DNA of 64,000 bases. It comes from Alphaproteobacteria bacterium (GTDB taxonomy: Bacteria; Pseudomonadota; Alphaproteobacteria; Reyranellales; Reyranellaceae). This document shows positions 3,391-20,767 of the stretch, one piece after another. Position 1 is the stretch's first letter; every line of letters begins with the position of its first letter. The stretch spans positions 62,001 through 126,000 of the forward strand of contig JAFKFL010000007.1 of NCBI GenBank assembly GCA_017308235.1. The letters run 5' to 3'. The position numbers were made by a program, and so were the translations under genes. Under the pieces are notes generated by a model, which was not told the DNA's origin, made no database searches, and was given only the letters and a program-made list of their open reading frames with translations.

Positions 3391-4098
3391 TCATTCGGCG
3401 GGCGGTACGAACATATAGCCGATGCCGCGCACGGTGCGAATGACCGTGGGCTTGTCAGGTGCCGGCTCGATCTTGCGCCGGATGCGGGTGATGCGCAGGT
3501 CGATCGCGCGGTCGAACGGATCGCGGGCGCGGTGGCTGGTGATCTCGAGCAGCCAGTCGCGGCTGAGTGGCCGGTTCGGGTTCTCGGCAAAGATCTTCAG
3601 GATGTCGAACTCGCCGGCGGTGATGGGCACTTCCAGGCCTGTGTCGTCCAGCAGCGCCCGCTTGGTGAGGTCGAGCGAATGGCGGCCCATGCGGACGCGT
3701 TCGATCCGGGGCGGCGTCGCCTTGTGGGCCGACCGGCGCAGCACGCTCTTGCAGCGCGCCAGCAATTCACGCGGCTCGTAAGGCTTGGATACATAGTCAT
3801 CGGCGCCGCTTTCGAGGCCCAGCACCTTGTCGACCGAGTCGCCGGCCGCCGTCAGCATGATGATGCCCACGCGCGTGCTGCTCTCGCGCAGCCAGCGGGC
3901 GAGGGCAAAGCCGTCATCCTGACCGGGAAGCTGGACATCGAGCAGAACGAGGTCGGGCATGGCCCGGGAGACCTGGCGGCGCATCTGGGCGCCGTTTTCG
4001 ACCGCAATCACCTTGAGGTCGTGATTCATTAAATATGCTTCGGCCGCCTTGCGCTGGAAGGCGTCATCTTCGACCAATAATACGGAAGGCTGTTGCAT
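3391..4098 (-). CDS. OmpR/PhoB-family response regulator
   Basis: 235-residue DNA-binding response regulator. The receiver domain covers about residues 5-115, with acidic pocket Glu10-Asp11-Asp12, phospho-acceptor Asp54 in LVLLDVQLPG, and the conserved Lys in SKPYEP. A winged-helix Trans_reg_C domain follows at about 135-232, ending in the typical TVRGIGYMF. The start is the ATG at 4098; the frame runs to a TTG at 4143, but that extension lacks receiver-like sequence. It is divergent from the hybrid kinase at 4253 across an AT-rich 154-bp promoter region and is the obvious final acceptor of that phosphorelay. The target genes are unknown. Confidence 0.9.
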   Translation of the reverse strand: MQQPSVLLVEDDAFQRKAAEAYLMNHDLKVIAVENGAQMRRQVSRAMPDLVLLDVQLPGQDDGFALARWLRESSTRVGIIMLTAAGDSVDKVLGLESGADDYVSKPYEPRELLARCKSVLRRSAHKATPPRIERVRMGRHSLDLTKRALLDDTGLEVPITAGEFDILKIFAENPNRPLSRDWLLEITSHRARDPFDRAIDLRITRIRRKIEPAPDKPTVIRTVRGIGYMFVPPAE

Positions 4099-4252
4099 GG
4101 CTTGATCCGAATATGAATAAAGTTTATGCCTATAAAATACCAAGGTTTTGCAACAATTTATAGTCCATTCTTAATACCTTTGATACAGTAATGGGCCTTT
4201 TTGGGGGCCAAACGCAAAATGTTGGCATCCATTGTTTCCCGGCTGGTGTCGC

Positions 4253-6418
4253 ATGTCGTCCGATCCTGAACAGGCAGACACTCCCGTTTCGCCCCTCGAA
4301 GTGGCCCATCCCACGCTCCAGGAAGCCTTCGTCCGCGCCGAGCTGATCCGCCGGCTGTTCGACGGTTCCAAGCAGTCCCGGTACTTTTCGTTCGTCCTGT
4401 GGCCGGTCATTGCCGCCATCTACTGGCGGCAGATCGACCTGATGGAGCTGGTACCGCCGTTCGTGGCCCATCTCGCGGTCACGGTTGCCTTCGATGTGCT
4501 GCGCCGCAACTTCGCACGCGCGAACCCGCCCGACGAGGACGTGGTCCGTTGGGGCTGGTGGTTCGCCGCGCTCTCCTTCCTGGCCGGCGCCTGCTGGGGC
4601 GCCGCGGGCTACCTGCTGGCCTCGAAGGACTATGAGCTGCAGCGCATGCTCCTGGGGCTGGTGCTGCTCGCCACAATCACCACGGCGGTGCCGATCCGGT
4701 CGGCCCATCCGCCGACCTTCTATACCTTTGCCGTCGCGACCACGGCGCCACTGCTGTTCGTGCTGCTCACCTCGGCCGACCCCTTCTATAAGCTGGTCGG
4801 CATCGCAGGCGGCGCCTATGTCGGCCATTTGATGGCCTATGTGCGCGACGTGCACCGCTGGCAGTACGACAACATCGCGCTCGCTTACCAGAAGGAGGAG
4901 CTGGCCCAGCGCCTGCAGGTCGCCTACGACGAGGAGCGGCTGGCGCGCGACACGGCGCTCGCCGCCAAGGGCGAGGCGGAGAAGGCCAACCAGGCCAAGT
5001 CGATCTTCCTTGCCACCATGAGCCACGAGATCCGCACACCAATGAACGGCGTGCTGGGCATGATCGACGTGCTGGAGCGCACGCCGCTTTCGTCGGAGCA
5101 GCGCGACTCGCTCGGCACCGTCCGCTATTCGGCCTCGGCGCTACTCAAGATCATCGACGACATCCTCGACTTCTCCAAGATCGAGGCCGGCCGCCTCGAT
5201 CTCGAACGCATCGAGGTCTCGACCGTGGAGCTGATCGAGGGCACGGCTGAGACGCTGGCCCAGCAGGCGGCCGCCAAGGGCGTGAAGCTGATCGCTTATG
5301 TCGCGGCGGGCGTGCCGGAACGGGTGATGGGCGACCCGCTGCGCCTGCAGCAGATCCTGTTCAACCTGCTGGGCAATGCGCTGAAGTTCACGGAGAAGGG
5401 CTGGGTGCGGCTCACGCTCGAACGGCCGGACGAAGACACGCTCTGCCTGCGCGTCGTCGATACCGGCATCGGCCTGACGCCGGAGCAGCGCGAGAAGCTG
5501 TTCCAGCCGTTCGTGCAGGCCGACAATTCCACGACGCGTCGTTTCGGTGGCACCGGGCTTGGCCTTTCGATCGTGCAGCGCCTTGCCGAAGCGATGGGCG
5601 GCTCGATCGCGGTCGAAAGCGCACCGGGCGAGGGCTCCGCCTTCACCGTCACCCTGCGGTTGGATGAGGCACCGAGCGCCGCGCCCGGCCCCATGCCGCT
5701 CGACGGGCTGACGCTTGCTCTGTCGCTCCCCGACTCCGAGGAATCGCGGGCGATCGCGCGGTATCTCACGGGCGCCGGCGCCCGTGTCGGCCTCGCACCT
5801 CCCGGCACGCCGTTCATCGGTATCAGGTTGATCGAAGCGGGAGCGCCCGAGCGTCGGGTGGCCCTGATCGACGGTCCGGCGCCGCGCAACGGCGGGCTGC
5901 TGCAGGGGCTGCCGCGGCCGTGGCGACGGGATGTCCTCATCCGCGCCGTGGCGCGTGCGGCGGGCCGGGCGCCGCTGCCCACACGGGGCATCGAGGTGCC
6001 GGCGGCACCGCAACGGACCGGTGGCCATATCCTTGTGGTCGACGACAATTCGGTGAACCGCAAGATCCTGGCGCGCCAGCTCGAGCTCGCCGGCGCCGCC
6101 TCGACCGACACGGCGGCCGGCGGCGTCGAGGCGCTGGAGCTGTGGCGCCGGCGACGTTACGACCTCGTGCTGGCCGATCTGCAGATGCCCACGATGGACG
6201 GCTTCGAACTGGCGCGGCGCATCCGCCAGAGCGAGCAGGCCGACCGGCGCGAGCGCACACCCATCCTCGCCATCACCGCAAGCGCGCTCGCCGAGCACGA
6301 GCAGCGCACGCGCGCGGTGGGCATGGATGGCCTGATCACCAAGCCGATCGGCATCGAGCAGTTGCGGGCGACTCTCGATGTCTGGCTGAAGGACGCCCGG
6401 ACGGAGCACATGACATGA
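4253..6418 (+). CDS. Membrane-bound hybrid histidine kinase (HisKA-HATPase-REC)
   Basis: 721-residue hybrid sensor kinase. The N-terminal ~200 residues hold about six hydrophobic segments, which I do not match to a named sensor domain, then a charged coiled-coil linker. HisKA follows with His258 in [10 protein letters not shown], then HATPase with N-box [10 protein letters not shown]1 DTGIGL and G2 [10 protein letters not shown] degenerate receiver-like stretch (about 480-560) precedes a true C-terminal REC with Asp642 in LVLADLQMP. The start is the ATG at 4253; an in-frame TTG at 4232 is less likely. Its TGA overlaps the HPt start as ATGA. This arrangement gives a His-Asp-His-Asp relay with the neighbouring HPt and response regulator. 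The signal sensed is unknown. Confidence 0.92.
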
Positions 6419-6741
6419 GCGAGGCCTACGATCGCGCGAGACTTGTCGAGCTGTTCGGCGATGATGCCGCGACGCTTGCCGAGGTCGAACGCGAGTTCCT
6501 CGACACCGCGCTCGGCGCAGCGCAGGAGATCGAGACCACCGACGATCTCGCCGTCATCGCTCGCGCCGCGCATCGGCTGAAGGGCGCGTCGGGCATGATT
6601 GGCGCCACGGCGCTGCACGGGATCGCAAAGGCCGTCGAGCAGGCGGCCAAGGCACACGACCTGCCGACGGTGCGCGGCATGCACGACGTCTTCCGCCACG
6701 AAGTTCAGCGCGTCGCCAATCAGGTCGGGTCGGCGGGATAA
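6415..6741 (+). CDS. Histidine phosphotransfer (HPt) domain protein
   Basis: 108-residue free-standing HPt module. The phosphorylatable His53 sits in the canonical AHRLKGASG motif within an all-helical protein. It overlaps the upstream kinase by four bases (ATGA), so translation is coupled and stoichiometry probably controlled. The inferred role is to take phosphate from the kinase's C-terminal receiver and pass it to the divergently encoded OmpR-type regulator. It ends 15 bases from the convergent amidohydrolase gene. Confidence 0.9.
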
Positions 6742-15544: not shown

Positions 15545-16447
15545 CTACTTCCGCGCCCGCAACAGGATCGTCGACGAATAGGAGAGCAGCGGCTTGCCGT
15601 TCTGTTCCAAAAGGCCGCGCAGGAAGGCGAGCGTCTTGCCGTGGCGCGGCACCTCCACGCGCGTCGTAACCGGCGATGTCGCTTCGCCGGCGGCCAGGAA
15701 CTCCGCGGCGAAGGAGACCGTGCTGGGCGCCATGCCGGTGACGAGTCCGGCTGCCCGCGTTATCGCCGAATCGGCAAAGCTCATCATGTAGCCGCCGTGC
15801 AGCACGCCGCCCGAGTTGCACATATGCGGCAGCGTCGGTTGCACCAGCGTGGCGCCGTCGGATTCCTGGCGTGCGTAGGAGGGACCGATATGGCGCGAGT
15901 AGGCGCTGGCGTTCGCCAAAAGCTCAAAGCCGGACGGCACGACCTGCGGGCCGGCCTTTGCGATGGTGGGCTGTGCGGCTTCCTTGCGGGCCATCGCCTT
16001 GTCGCGCGCCACGTGGCGGCAGACGCCTGACCATAATGCGATCGGGCGGCCTTCCTGCGTGACGGTGCCGCGCACGAAGGCGAGGCGGCCAGTGATCTGC
16101 AGCGGCTCGCCGCGCGCCTCGAGGGGTGGCCCGATGCGGCCGGCATTCAGGAACTCAACGGCAATGCTTACCGTCATCGCAAACGCGCTGTTGCCGCCGC
16201 CGTCGACGGCACGGCCGGCGATTACACAGAGCGCATAGTCGGCGAGCGTGATGATCGCGCCGCCATGTACGCCGCCGGCGTAGTTGGCCTGGCGCGGCTC
16301 GGTCGGCAGCACGCAATGGATGCTGTCCTTGACGCGCGGATCGCCATCGATGCGGAAGTAGAAGGGGCCGGTGTGATCCTCGAACGGATCGGTCGGCGCA
16401 AACATCGAGTAGTGCGCAAGATCTATCGCGGCAGCAGTGTCGGGCAT
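15545..16447 (-). CDS. Tandem hotdog-fold thioesterase (PaaI-like, two domains)
   Basis: 300 residues containing two consecutive hotdog domains. The first has GGVHGGAIITLADYA and the second GGVLHGGYMMSFADSA, each the HGG-centred helix of PaaI/4HBT thioesterases, each followed by its own beta-sheet run. The start is the ATG at 16447; the frame upstream to 16552 is basic and unlike the family. It is convergent with the ferredoxin gene six bases away and divergent from the second crotonase, so it probably hydrolyses acyl-CoA from the same metabolism. Single-domain PaaI proteins are about 140 residues, so this is a covalent dimer. Confidence 0.85.
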   Translation of the reverse strand: MPDTAAAIDLAHYSMFAPTDPFEDHTGPFYFRIDGDPRVKDSIHCVLPTEPRQANYAGGVHGGAIITLADYALCVIAGRAVDGGGNSAFAMTVSIAVEFLNAGRIGPPLEARGEPLQITGRLAFVRGTVTQEGRPIALWSGVCRHVARDKAMARKEAAQPTIAKAGPQVVPSGFELLANASAYSRHIGPSYARQESDGATLVQPTLPHMCNSGGVLHGGYMMSFADSAITRAAGLVTGMAPSTVSFAAEFLAAGEATSPVTTRVEVPRHGKTLAFLRGLLEQNGKPLLSYSSTILLRARK

Positions 16448-16532
16448 CCGGTTGGCTCTTGTGATTCGTCGCGAGCGGGTTCTATTAGAGGAAATTCTCC
16501 TCGACGACAAAAGAGCCACGGAGCGAAACCCC

Positions 16533-17324
16533 ATGACGCCTGCCGCGCACAAAATCGAGGTCCGGCGCGAACAGCGCGAACGCGGGGCCGTGGCCCATGT
16601 GATCTATGACCAGTCGCGGCGGCTGAATGTGGTGGGGCCGCCGTCGCTGCGCGATCTCGCCGACACCTTCCATACGCTCGCCAAGGACGACGACCTCAGG
16701 GCCGTGGTGTTTTCGGGTGCGGGAGGCCGCGCTTTCATCGGCGGCGCTGACATCAACTATATGGCGGCATTGCGCGAAGGCGAGGAGGGGCGCGCATTCA
16801 TTACCCTGATCCACAAGCTCTGCCAGTCGATCCGCGACTGCCCGGTCCCGGTCATTTGCCGCATGGAGGGCTATACGCTGGGCGCGGGCCTCGAAGTGGC
16901 GGCAGCATGCGACATGCGCATCGCCGCGGAGACGGCCTTCTTTGGCATGCCCGAGGTGAAGGTCGGCCTGCCGTCGGTGGTCGAAGCAGCGCTGCTGCCG
17001 CGCCTGATCGGCTGGGGCCGCACCTCGCGACTTCTGCTCACGGCCGAGACCATTGGAGCGGCAAAGGCCGAGGCCTGGGGCATGGTCGAGGAAGTCGTGT
17101 CGACAGCCGAGCTGGACGCCGCGATCGAACGAGTGGTGCAGGCCATCGTCGAAGCCGGGCCCGCCGCGGTGCGCAGTCAGAAGCAGCTGATGCGCCGTTG
17201 GGAGCGGTTGTCGCTCGACGAGGCGGTGCAGGCCGGCATCGATGCGTTCGCCCAAACCATCGCCGGCGGCGAGCACATCGAGCCGATGACCGCCTTCGTC
17301 CAGCGCAAGCGCGAGAAGAAGTAG
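16533..17324 (+). CDS. Second enoyl-CoA hydratase/isomerase family protein
   Basis: 263-residue crotonase. The oxyanion-hole parts are AFIGGADINYM and EGYTLGAGLEVAAACDM, and the Glu lies in FGMPEVKVG. The ATG at 16533 is preceded by GGAG; the frame extends upstream to 16437, overlapping the divergent thioesterase start, which makes the longer form unlikely. It is not close in sequence to the crotonase at 14419, so it is not a recent duplicate. It is convergent with the response regulator seven bases downstream. Role: hydration or isomerisation of an unidentified enoyl-CoA. Confidence 0.9.
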   Translation: MTPAAHKIEVRREQRERGAVAHVIYDQSRRLNVVGPPSLRDLADTFHTLAKDDDLRAVVFSGAGGRAFIGGADINYMAALREGEEGRAFITLIHKLCQSIRDCPVPVICRMEGYTLGAGLEVAAACDMRIAAETAFFGMPEVKVGLPSVVEAALLPRLIGWGRTSRLLLTAETIGAAKAEAWGMVEEVVSTAELDAAIERVVQAIVEAGPAAVRSQKQLMRRWERLSLDEAVQAGIDAFAQTIAGGEHIEPMTAFVQRKREKK

Positions 17325-17331
17325 CGGCCGC

Positions 17332-18138
17332 TTACGTCGGTCGGCGCCGCGAATAGGTCTCGAAGAAATTCTCGACTGCGGCGAGGCCGGTCGAACTGAG
17401 GCGCACGATGGCGCGGCGTTTGTCGTCCGGATCGTCGATGCGTTCGATCAGGCCATGCGACTGCAGGGCGCTGATGCGGCGCCACGCCGTGGTTGGCGGC
17501 GCGCCCGAAGCGGCAGCAAGACTGGTCACCGTAACCTGCTGATTGGCAAGACGCGCATCGTAGAGGTCAAGCAGCATTTCCCAGCATGGATCGGAGAAGA
17601 GTTCGGAGGGGAAATACTGGCTCCGGACCTTTCGCACGGCGCGCAAGCTGTCGAGCGTCGCGCGATTGCGCTGCGGCGGATGACGCTCATCGGCACGCAC
17701 TTGCGGCGCTGCTTCCGCCTTCGTCTCGGCCCGCAGCTGACGAACCTGGAGCGCCGACTTCACCGAGCGCACCAGCGTTTGAGGCGGAACCGGCTTGGTC
17801 AGCAGGTCCCGTGCATGAAGACGGATCGCCTGCACGGCATCGTCGAAGCCGGCGTTGCCGCTCATGAAGACGAGTTCGGGCCGCTGCGGATCGGGCAGTC
17901 CGTTGAGCCGCTCGGCAAATTGTAATCCGTCCAGCTCCGGCATGCGCAGATCGGAGACGACGACGCCTACGCGGCATCCCCGCGAGAGAAGGTGCAAGGC
18001 GTGAAAGCCATCGCGGACATCGAGGCAGGAGAGCCCCGATTTCTTCAGGCAATTGCCAGCTTCGGCGGCGATCATCGGATCGTCGTCAACGATCAGGACA
18101 TCGATCGCCCTCGAACCATAAGCTTGCGCGTCGGCCAT
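17332..18138 (-). CDS. Response regulator with MarR-like winged-helix output domain
   Basis: 268 residues. The N-terminal receiver (about 12-130) has the acidic pocket Asp18-Asp19-Asp20, phospho-acceptor Asp63 in VVSDLRMPELDG, and Lys in LTKPVPP. After a charged linker the C-terminal ~90 residues form a MarR-type winged helix: SLAAASGAPPTTAWRRISALQSHGLIER then the wing DPDDKRRAIVRLSSTG. The start is the ATG at 18138; the open frame runs far upstream without domain content. No kinase lies beside it, so it is an orphan. A large palindrome 63 bp upstream of the start (18201-18232) is a candidate autoregulatory site. Confidence 0.88.
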   Translation of the reverse strand: MADAQAYGSRAIDVLIVDDDPMIAAEAGNCLKKSGLSCLDVRDGFHALHLLSRGCRVGVVVSDLRMPELDGLQFAERLNGLPDPQRPELVFMSGNAGFDDAVQAIRLHARDLLTKPVPPQTLVRSVKSALQVRQLRAETKAEAAPQVRADERHPPQRNRATLDSLRAVRKVRSQYFPSELFSDPCWEMLLDLYDARLANQQVTVTSLAAASGAPPTTAWRRISALQSHGLIERIDDPDDKRRAIVRLSSTGLAAVENFFETYSRRRPT

Positions 18139-18200
18139 ACCTGCTGCTTCCGCTATGACGCTCACGCCACAGGCCCTAGAGTAAAGCCGTACCCATCCCT

Positions 18201-18232
18201 GCGCTATTGCATATTTAATATGCAAAAAGCGC
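18201..18232. promoter_or_regulatory. Large palindrome, candidate MarR-type operator
   Basis: The core is a perfect 9-bp inverted repeat around one base: TTGCATATT (18207-18215), T, AATATGCAA (18217-18225). It is nested in an outer pair GCGCT (18201-18205) and AGCGC (18228-18232). MarR-family dimers classically bind AT-rich palindromes of this form, and the gene 63 bp away encodes a MarR-output response regulator. Function as an operator is inferred. Confidence 0.6.
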
Positions 18233-18400
18233 TGCCGGACGCGGTTCTTCCAAGAATTTGCCCCCTTGTGGAACCTCTTTTGCCAAACCAGATAGGCCGC
18301 TGACCTTCGGATTGAGGTCTGTGGCGGCCCTCGAAGGGCTTGGCGGGGGCTCCCTATTTTCACTCCTATCTGCAGCGGTCGACAAAATAATATCGTTCGA

Positions 18401-18427
18401 TTGACACAGTTTCGCGGTGCGTATAGA
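18401..18427 (+). promoter_or_regulatory. Promoter-like -35/-10 upstream of the TetR-family gene
   Basis: TTGACA at 18401-18406 and TATAGA at 18422-18427, with a 15-bp spacer, which is shorter than ideal. The -35 touches an inverted repeat ATCG-TT-CGAT (18392-18401), a possible site for repression by the TetR-type product 30 bp downstream. Confidence 0.4.
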
Positions 18428-18456
18428 CAGCCGCGCTGCACCGCAGGGCAAATCGG

Positions 18457-19170
18457 ATGAATCACAGCGCACTACGGCAGCGGCCCGGAGCCTATGCCCG
18501 GGGCGAGGATACCCGTCGTCGCATCCTTGAGACCGCGCTCGATATCTTTGCTGCCGAAGGCTACGAGGGCGCAAGCACTCGCCTGCTGGCCGAACGCGCC
18601 GGCGTCAACTTGCCGGCCATCCAATATTACTTCGGCAGTAAGGAAGGTCTTTACCGCGCTGTCGTCGAACATATTGTGCAGCGCAACGAAGCGCAGATGG
18701 CGCCGCTGGCAGTGAAAGTCCGTGCGGCTCTTGCCCATCCGGAAACACCGGCCGAGGAACTGCTGGAGCTCCTGTGCAACATGCTTGAGGCGTTCGTGAC
18801 CTTGATCTCCGGCGGACCGCAAAGTGAGAGCACGCGGCTGTTTTATGCACGAGCAGAGATCGAGCGCACGGCGGGTCTCGAAATGCTGCACCAGGCGGGG
18901 ATGCGCCAGATCTTCGAGCCTTGTCTCGCTCTGGTTGGCCGGCTACTCGGCCGATCGGTGGACGATCAAGCGATCGTGCTGCGGACGCTGACGCAGATCG
19001 GTCAGGTGACGATCTTCTGCAATCGTGGGGTGCGCGAGGCGTTGGGCTTCGACCTCTTCAGCGAGGAACGCGTGCGCGCTGTCCAGTCGCTGGTGCGGGC
19101 TCATACCCGGGCAATCATGCGCGATGCCATGGCGGCGCCGCGCCAAGCTGAACTGACGGGCGGACAATAA
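18457..19170 (+). CDS. TetR-family regulator, CecR/YbiH-like
   Basis: 237-residue repressor. The N-terminal HTH spans about residues 20-65, with the recognition segment STRLLAERAGVNLPAIQYYFGSKEGLY. The C-terminal half, including IFEPCLALVGRLLGRS and IGQVTIFCNRGVREALG, resembles the DUF1956 ligand domain of CecR proteins. It is followed after four bases by the outer-membrane efflux gene, so it is the first gene of the pump operon and probably represses it until a toxic compound binds. CecR homologues elsewhere control efflux genes, which supports this role. Confidence 0.9.
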   Translation: MNHSALRQRPGAYARGEDTRRRILETALDIFAAEGYEGASTRLLAERAGVNLPAIQYYFGSKEGLYRAVVEHIVQRNEAQMAPLAVKVRAALAHPETPAEELLELLCNMLEAFVTLISGGPQSESTRLFYARAEIERTAGLEMLHQAGMRQIFEPCLALVGRLLGRSVDDQAIVLRTLTQIGQVTIFCNRGVREALGFDLFSEERVRAVQSLVRAHTRAIMRDAMAAPRQAELTGGQ

Positions 19171-19174
19171 TCAA

Positions 19175-20767
19175 ATGAGACGTTCTTCCTCCTCCTCCCT
19201 GTCGCGTGCCGCCCGGCGCGCGGGTATTCGCGTCGGCCTTGGCGCCGCTGCCCTGGCAAGCCTTGCCGTCGTGGCCGGCTGCTCGGTGGGTCCCGATTTC
19301 AAGCGGCCGACCAAGCCGGCGGAGTCGGGCTATACACCGGAAAGCCTGGTGCCGACGACTGCGTCGGCCGGCGTGGTCGACGGCGGCTCGTCGCAAACCT
19401 TCAATCCCGGCGCCGACATTCCCGGCCAGTGGTGGGAGCTCTATCGCTCGTCCGAGCTCAATGGGCTGATCGAGCAGGCGCTCAAGGCCAATCCCGATCT
19501 CGATGCCGCGCAGGCGTCGCTGCGCCAGGCCAACGAGCTGCTCTATGCCCAGCAAGGGACGCTGTTTCCGACGATCAGCGCCAATGGACAGGGCCAGCAG
19601 CAAAAGTTCAACGGCGCGACGACGGGCCAACTTGTCGCCCCGCAGGTGTTCGGCGTGACCACCGGTTCGCTCAACATCGCCTACAACCCCGACGTTTGGG
19701 GCGGCACGCGGCGGTCGGTCGAGGCGCAGGCGGCGCAGGCCGAGTTCCAGCGCTTCCAGCTCGAGGCGACCTATCTCACGCTCACCTCCAACGTCGTCGT
19801 GGCGGCGGTGAACCTTGCCTCGCTGCGCGCCCAGATCGCGGCCACCGAGGACATCATCAAAAGCCAGACCGATTCGCTACGCGTGGTGCAAACCCAGTTC
19901 GACCTGGGTGGTGCCGCACGGTCGGACGTGCTGCAGCAGCAGGCGACGTTGACGGCGACACAGGCCCAGCTTCCGCCGTTGCAGAAGCAGCTCGCCCAGC
20001 AGCGTAACCAGCTCATGACCTTGCTCGGCAAGCCGCCGACCGACGATGCGGGACAGGGCCTGCGGCTGCAGACGCTGCATCTGCCGGAGCAGCTGCCGCT
20101 CAGCCTGCCCTCGCAACTGGTCGAGCAGCGACCCGATGTGCGCTCGGCAGAGGCGCAGCTCCACACTGCGAGCGCCAACGTCGGCGTGGCCGAAGCAGCG
20201 CAGCTTCCGCAGTTCCAGATCAACGGCCTGTGGGGCGTCGCGTCCTTGGGCCTCGGCACCTTCTTCGCACCCGGCTCGGGCGTGTGGAGTCTCGGCCTCA
20301 GCCTGGCGCAGACGCTGATCGACGGCGGCCAGCTCGAACACAAGAAGCTCGCGGCGGCGGCGGCTTATGACAAGGCGGCGGCGCAGTACCGCAGCACCGT
20401 GCTCACGGCCTTCCAGGACGTGGCCAACGCGCTGCGCGCCTTGCAATCCGACGCCGATACGCTGAAGGCGACGGTGGCGGCCGAGCAGACGGCGTTGGCG
20501 AGCTTGAACCTCGCCCAGCAGCAATTCCAGCTCGGCGCCGTCAACTACCTGACACTTTTGACCGCCCAGCAGCAGTATCAGAACTCGCTCGTCAATCGCG
20601 TGCGGGCGCAGGGCCAACGCTACGCCGATACGGCGGCGCTGTTCCAGGCGCTGGGCGGTGGCTGGTGGAATCGAACCGACGTCAAGCCCGAGTCGAAGGG
20701 CAAGCCTAATCGGTACGTGAACGTGCCGCACGTGGAAGACATCAAGCCGCCCCGGGCGGGGCACTGA
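19175..20767 (+). CDS. RND efflux outer-membrane factor, NodT/OprM family lipoprotein
   Basis: 530-residue TolC-type outer-membrane channel. The N-terminus has a basic, then hydrophobic signal with a lipobox-like VVAGC, so Cys near residue 36 is probably lipidated. The mature start SVGPDFKRP and later QWWELYRSSELNGLIEQAL are typical NodT features, as are two OEP repeats rich in Ala and Gln. The tail (about the last 30 residues) is polar and Lys-rich. The membrane-fusion gene starts 12 bases after the stop. It completes a tripartite pump with the next two genes. Confidence 0.93.
   Translation: MRRSSSSSLSRAARRAGIRVGLGAAALASLAVVAGCSVGPDFKRPTKPAESGYTPESLVPTTASAGVVDGGSSQTFNPGADIPGQWWELYRSSELNGLIEQALKANPDLDAAQASLRQANELLYAQQGTLFPTISANGQGQQQKFNGATTGQLVAPQVFGVTTGSLNIAYNPDVWGGTRRSVEAQAAQAEFQRFQLEATYLTLTSNVVVAAVNLASLRAQIAATEDIIKSQTDSLRVVQTQFDLGGAARSDVLQQQATLTATQAQLPPLQKQLAQQRNQLMTLLGKPPTDDAGQGLRLQTLHLPEQLPLSLPSQLVEQRPDVRSAEAQLHTASANVGVAEAAQLPQFQINGLWGVASLGLGTFFAPGSGVWSLGLSLAQTLIDGGQLEHKKLAAAAAYDKAAAQYRSTVLTAFQDVANALRALQSDADTLKATVAAEQTALASLNLAQQQFQLGAVNYLTLLTAQQQYQNSLVNRVRAQGQRYADTAALFQALGGGWWNRTDVKPESKGKPNRYVNVPHVEDIKPPRAGH

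Follow-up and report, generated by a model that had tools for sequence, protein, structure and literature searches.

A response regulator with a MarR-type output in a Reyranellaceae genome and a candidate operator upstream of its relatives

The window analyzed here, a stretch of 64,000 nucleotides from a Reyranellaceae genome (G000), carries on its reverse strand a gene for a response regulator of 268 amino acids (17332-18138). The gene was read from an ATG at 18138; upstream of this codon the reading frame remains free of stops as far as a GTG at 18465. The protein is a genuine receiver joined to a MarR-type output. Its receiver domain (17761-18099, reverse strand) matches Response_reg (PF00072) with an E-value of 9.6e-21, and both the phosphoacceptor Asp63 (codon 17950-17952) and Lys115 (codon 17794-17796), at alignment positions 52 and 104, show no variation across the 30 rows aligned. 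The initial annotation, which had described a true receiver with this aspartate and a lysine, was correct in this respect, and the domain has the features of a two-component response regulator, acidic pocket included.

The output domain is a winged helix (17416-17577, reverse strand) whose recognition helix contains Trp219 (codon 17482-17484), a leucine in 26 of 27 orthologs. A profile search, the check proposed with the initial annotation, recovered both parts of the architecture: MarR (PF01047) was matched with an E-value of 8.5e-6 and 26.0 bits against a cut-off of 24.6, but HTH_IclR also exceeded its own Pfam cut-off (23.9 versus 22). Assignment to another winged-helix family was nevertheless rejected, as both the PDB profile search and the fold favor MarR. 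More specifically, a profile of the output domain retrieved 60 PDB sequences at E ≤ 0.01, most of them named MarR family or known members, including MepR, SlyA and TcaR. The modeled output domain (mean pLDDT 90.1) has a MarR fold, with Z-scores of up to 14.3; it superposes best on the MepR-DNA complex, with Z 14.3 and an rmsd of 2.0 across 109 residues, and most of the 50 matches listed are MarR-family chains. The MarR-like output that had been proposed is therefore backed by Pfam, by the PDB profile search and by the fold. The full-length model reached a mean pLDDT of 86.5 and a pTM of 0.53. With the MarR family (PF01047; MepR, HpaR, SlyA) the protein shares a winged helix with flanking helices, but it differs in carrying an N-terminal receiver domain. 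MarR proteins have a full dimer domain; the modeled chain stops after one C-terminal helix, so that such a domain is not evident in the window protein.

This architecture is rare but known. Among 387 alphaproteobacterial genomes, the output domain was matched at E ≤ 1e-12 in 27 and was fused to a receiver at least once in 17, the window's own genome included, a count for which the best match was examined in all 27 genomes and second matches only in part. The rarity originally ascribed to MarR outputs is borne out by these numbers. A survey of Azospirillum has already tabulated a MarR family of response regulators, counting one member in B510 and, for A. brasilense Sp245, two (Table 5 of PMC4618731), so the architecture is not new. 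These proteins resemble the window protein in their MarR DNA-binding output and their occurrence in Alphaproteobacteria, but the accessible portions of that survey give no regulon, operator or kinase for them. No mention of a REC-MarR fusion was found in the accessible portions of PMC2222644, PMC2864759, PMC3899027 and PMC4340629, and the literature, as far as it was accessible, yielded no operator, regulon, partner kinase or function for a response regulator with a MarR output. In our searches, Azospirillum sp. B510 carries on one of its replicons a match that spans 95% of the window protein at 28.6% identity, and a relative on an Ochrobactrum plasmid sits after a gene with the annotation ATP-binding protein. 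L207 shows the architecture in a longer form, a 589-aa open frame with a receiver at residues 270-385 and a winged helix at 451-551.

The gene lies between an enoyl-CoA hydratase-like gene (16533-17324, forward strand; label by eye) and a gene for a TetR/CecR-type regulator (18457-19170, forward strand), which heads an OMF-MFP-RND efflux set extending to 25012 (OMF, MFP and RND labels by eye). Together with a palindrome, it forms an insertion of one gene, about 0.9 kb long, that separates the hydratase gene from the tetR-RND operon, with an approximate extent of 17325-18260. Compared with 27 other genomes of the genus, only the window has a REC-MarR gene at the tetR locus. In seven of them (G001, G002, G010, G015, G027, G036, G085) the genes for the PaaI-like protein, hydratase, TetR and OMF lie side by side without it; in the remaining 20, no hydratase gene was found next to tetR within the stretch examined. 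In a BLAST comparison with G015, the match ends near 17309 and resumes at 18334, with a weaker alignment reaching back to about 18260. G002, which is nearer to the window than G015 for five of six flanking proteins, retains a degraded remnant of about 90 bp from the 3' end of the REC-MarR gene (local alignment score 27, against at most 20 in 300 shuffles) as well as the palindrome region, with 15 of 19 bases kept (score 16; maximum 12.5 in 300 shuffles). Neither was found in G015, G085 or G010, which together with G002 made up the comparison. This pattern suggests that gene and palindrome entered before the split of G000 and G002 and that the gene was subsequently lost from G002. An insertion younger than this split was dropped as an explanation, given that G002 retains both the gene remnant and the palindrome region.

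Other genomes of the genus encode relatives of the TetR/CecR-type regulator at 54-85% identity; the regulator and the RND genes are neighbors of the REC-MarR gene, not homologous to it, and also occur in congeners that lack it. The tetR promoter region is conserved in such congeners, too. By direct reading, TTGACA-N15-TATAGA stands upstream of tetR at 18401-18427. All eight hydratase-tetR intergenic regions compared share CGATTGACA, which in G001, G027 and G036 lies within a near-palindrome resembling a TetR operator. A search for Rfam families at the gathering threshold returned none in 16400-19500, no sigma-70-like pair reached the scan threshold in 17250-18520, and TTGACA-N17-TATAGA had no match in the window.

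The palindrome is an AT-rich, perfect 9-bp inverted repeat, TTGCATATT-T-AATATGCAA, at 18207-18225 (no strand assigned). Its perfection was reported initially and stands; the outer arms described with it (GCGCT/AGCGC, 18201-18232) do exist, but direct reading showed them to be imperfect and one base out of register. Position 18201 is 62 bp from the ATG. The window has three perfect inverted repeats that are 9 bp or longer and have a gap of 0-3, and 20 simulated first-order Markov sequences contain 2.45 of them on average, so repeats of this kind are unexceptional over 64 kb. The simulated ones all stayed at or below 70% A+T, and the chance of such a repeat in a 318-bp intergenic region of the same composition is 0.005. 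At up to three mismatches the palindrome is single in the 6.3-Mb genome, and a repeated regulon site was ruled out by this one copy. The same search matched 7 of 65 genomes of the genus including its own (6 of 64 others) and 5 of 65 with the backwards control, which places the matches at chance level, G002 apart. The palindrome had been proposed as the operator of the regulator. It did not, however, turn up in any of the upstream stretches examined for 29 orthologs (330 bp, or 68 bp at L060), where another dyad is conserved. The palindrome is probably not the usual operator of the REC-MarR family and qualifies at most as a candidate operator; autorepression through it is possible, on local rather than comparative grounds.

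The orthologs were drawn from 80 loci. The 29 that code for a REC-MarR ortholog (L035-L063) entered the analysis; in the remaining 51 it is mainly the receiver that matches. These 29 loci are mutually related, and two come from one assembly (L043, L051). REC-MarR proteins of at least 57% identity are present in 18 of 37 genomes of the genus, the window's own included, which holds one full-length match; G017, G024 and G034 have REC-MarR proteins at 35-41% identity, and REC-MarR status is not established for nine genomes (G066, G074, G075, G076, G077, G079, G081, G082, G083). A small receiver related to one on contig C32 of the window's genome, described below, lies in the examined stretch at 19 of the 29 loci.

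A histidine kinase was found in the examined flanks of 26 of the 29 loci. Twenty-one have a divergent kinase of one clade, labeled dCache from a Pfam match below threshold in the case of the L038 kinase and, for the other 20, from the kinase tree; four (L036, L037, L041, L060) have a PAS kinase of a separate clade, and L062 has an 894-aa kinase. Three loci are without a kinase: L055 and L063, both with short upstream flanks, and L059, the other REC-MarR copy of G002, where none was found within 17 kb (L150). The window gene likewise has no adjoining kinase, as originally noted; the sole profile match in the window is a hybrid kinase at 4232-6418, about 11 kb away. With a kinase in the examined flanks of nearly all ortholog loci (26 of 29), its lack at the window gene and at the other copy of G002 appears to be a derived state. 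The REC-MarR tree does not settle the position of the window protein. At L041 (4317-8442), the REC-MarR gene stands between receiver and PAS kinase genes, both on the opposite strand, which is also an insertion-like arrangement. Within the window, 3391-6741 comprises an OmpR-like regulator divergent from the hybrid kinase, followed by an Hpt-like ORF, labels that were assigned by eye except for the receiver and kinase matches.

To characterize the upstream regions of the orthologs, all 4-mer dyads with spacers of 1-9 were scanned. The top three, present in 12, 6 and 5 of the 29 regions, are all forms of TCCRNNNYGGA, and the maximum in 30 shuffles was 3. The dyad lies 72-89 bp before the codon of the near-invariant aspartate that opens the receiver (residue 13 of the window protein). 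In its strict form it was found in this narrow range upstream of 22 of the 29 orthologs, TCC and GGA being invariant among these by selection. The remaining seven are L035, L036, L037, L041, L060 (68 bp examined), L062 and L063. Upstream of the linked small receivers, a 3-mer dyad scan (20 loci given, 19 yielding a receiver match) ranked TCC-N5-GGA first, with 18 of 19 against a maximum of 9 in 50 shuffles. These findings suggest that TCCRNNNYGGA is a candidate operator of REC-MarR proteins. The strict dyad occurs 4 times in the 64-kb window, a background of 0.0125 per 200 bp, and is commoner in the 29 ortholog loci, with 87 occurrences in 279 kb, conserved sites included. Near the window gene (18101-18470) no match with up to one mismatch was found, and nine with two mismatches compare with 6.2 expected from the window density. 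The distant REC-MarR relatives L023, L024, L025, L190 and L191 gave no match in the examined stretches.

The dyad also precedes receivers that are not linked to a REC-MarR gene, 8 of 30 in the genus. These totals take in all 30 unlinked receivers; in the grouping used for the linked-receiver scan, the dyad was present in 5 of 5 and 0 of 22, with the dyad-bearing L230, L240 and L245 in neither group. Seven of the eight carriers are in genomes with REC-MarR (G000, G002, G011, G018, G032, G072, G078), and the status of the eighth, G082, is not established. In genomes without REC-MarR the dyad is absent from all seven unlinked receivers (G001, G004, G020, G022, G023, G028, G031). It is absent from seven more despite a REC-MarR in the genome (G017, G018, G027, G029, G036, G063, G072) and from eight in genomes whose status is not established. 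Since the orthologs are related to each other and the carriers in G000, G002, G011, G032 and G078 form one clade (95/90), the association reflects few independent events and is suggestive. Three unlinked receiver loci, L153, L154 and L155 (in G032, G011 and G078), each carry a pair of TCCRNNNYGGA dyads separated by 77-85 bp.

In the window's own genome, the dyad-bearing receiver gene is located on contig C32, unlinked to the REC-MarR gene. It overlaps the gene of a multi-PAS histidine kinase of 987 aa, the two together occupying L133 7558-10967. The dyad TCCGTTATGGA is located upstream at C32:175010-175020, at a distance of 44-67 bp from the two alternative starts of the receiver gene. Contig C15 encodes an 871-aa paralogue of this kinase. 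A kinase tree, which gave long-branch warnings, places the kinases of C32 and C15 in a single clade (99/98) together with the PAS kinases found close to REC-MarR in L036, L037, L041 and L060. The C32 receiver was also considered as an ortholog of the cluster-linked receivers, an assignment that was dropped when it fell in the clade of unlinked receivers.

The window copy has itself diverged. It departs from the orthologs at 15 positions where at least 25 of 27 agree. In the recognition helix Leu219 is replaced by Trp and Met222 by Ile, each against 26 of 27 orthologs; Trp219 is shared with L041. Helix 1 of a receiver carries partner specificity. Measured against the consensus for dCache-linked orthologs, this helix of the window protein has 23% identity and the rest of the receiver 67%; for the PAS-linked L036, L037, L041 and L060 the values are 38-54% and 59-76%, respectively. 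L062 and L063 were left out of the recognition-helix and helix 1 comparisons.

From these data, the protein would be a phosphorylation-controlled, presumably dimeric transcription factor of the MarR type. In relatives, REC-MarR would control its own gene and the adjoining small receiver genes (and kinase genes) through the dyad. The window gene, which has neither dyad nor such neighbors, would act in trans on the C32 operon at TCCGTTATGGA, and its likely phosphodonor is the C32 987-aa PAS kinase or its C15 871-aa paralogue, both candidates by homology. We give an even chance to this reading, in which a relocated regulator acts on the receiver-kinase operon through TCCRNNNYGGA and is phosphorylated by the C32 or C15 kinase. 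Several findings count against this reading, among them the orthologs and the unlinked receivers of REC-MarR genomes that are without the dyad (seven of each), the loss of this gene copy from G002, a second strict dyad match at C32:164151 in the 18-kb stretch, the paralogous rather than orthologous relation of the C32 receiver to most linked receivers, and the 4-mer scan of the linked receivers, in which GATC-N7-GATC was commonest (8 of 19) and TCCG-N3-CGGA second (7). Furthermore, the two differences in the recognition helix mean that the window protein may no longer bind the dyad. All function ascribed to REC-MarR here is read from sequence. A fuller version, which we advance only tentatively, would hold that REC-MarR of the Reyranella lineage uses TCCRNNNYGGA as operator and controls its own receiver and PAS-kinase genes, and that the window gene moved singly and still commands the operon in trans with an altered kinase interface and recognition helix.

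The autorepression originally envisaged, through the palindrome at 18207-18225 and modulated by phosphorylation, would draw on a perfect dyad that is locally improbable, single in the genome and at a plausible distance from the ATG. The recognition helix of this copy has also changed, and G002 retains 15 of the 19 palindrome bases next to a mere gene remnant. With no palindrome found upstream of the 29 orthologs, most of which have the other dyad, and with chance-level matches in the genus apart from G002, we consider this account unlikely. As a whole, the initial annotation is supported as to receiver, MarR output and rarity; a role of the palindrome as the operator of the family is not supported. 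It is similarly improbable that the dyad belongs to another regulator of both genes and that REC-MarR has other targets. Dyad and REC-MarR are linked by co-occurrence alone, and seven unlinked receivers in REC-MarR genomes are without the dyad; yet Pfam recognized no other DNA-binding domain in 20 neighborhood proteins, and the dyad is missing in all seven genomes that have the receiver but no REC-MarR.

More doubtful still is the view that the window copy is a relocated gene in the course of diverging or decaying, perhaps recruited by the adjoining tetR-RND or hydratase genes. The divergence of receiver helix 1 and the recognition helix would fit, as would the adjacent, divergent tetR gene and the remnant of about 90 bp to which the gene is reduced in G002. 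The reading frame and the invariant residues of the window copy are intact, however, and the tetR promoter region is conserved where the gene is missing.

If the reading of a relocated regulator acting in trans is true, a two-component circuit would have been caught while being split and rewired. The candidate operator stands upstream of 48 genes across related genomes (22 regulator, 18 linked receiver and 8 unlinked receiver genes), and together with the candidate kinase operon it would make this class of response regulators testable. The relocated copy in the window and its remnant in a related genome would amount to a small natural experiment on the way in which such circuits come apart and are rewired.
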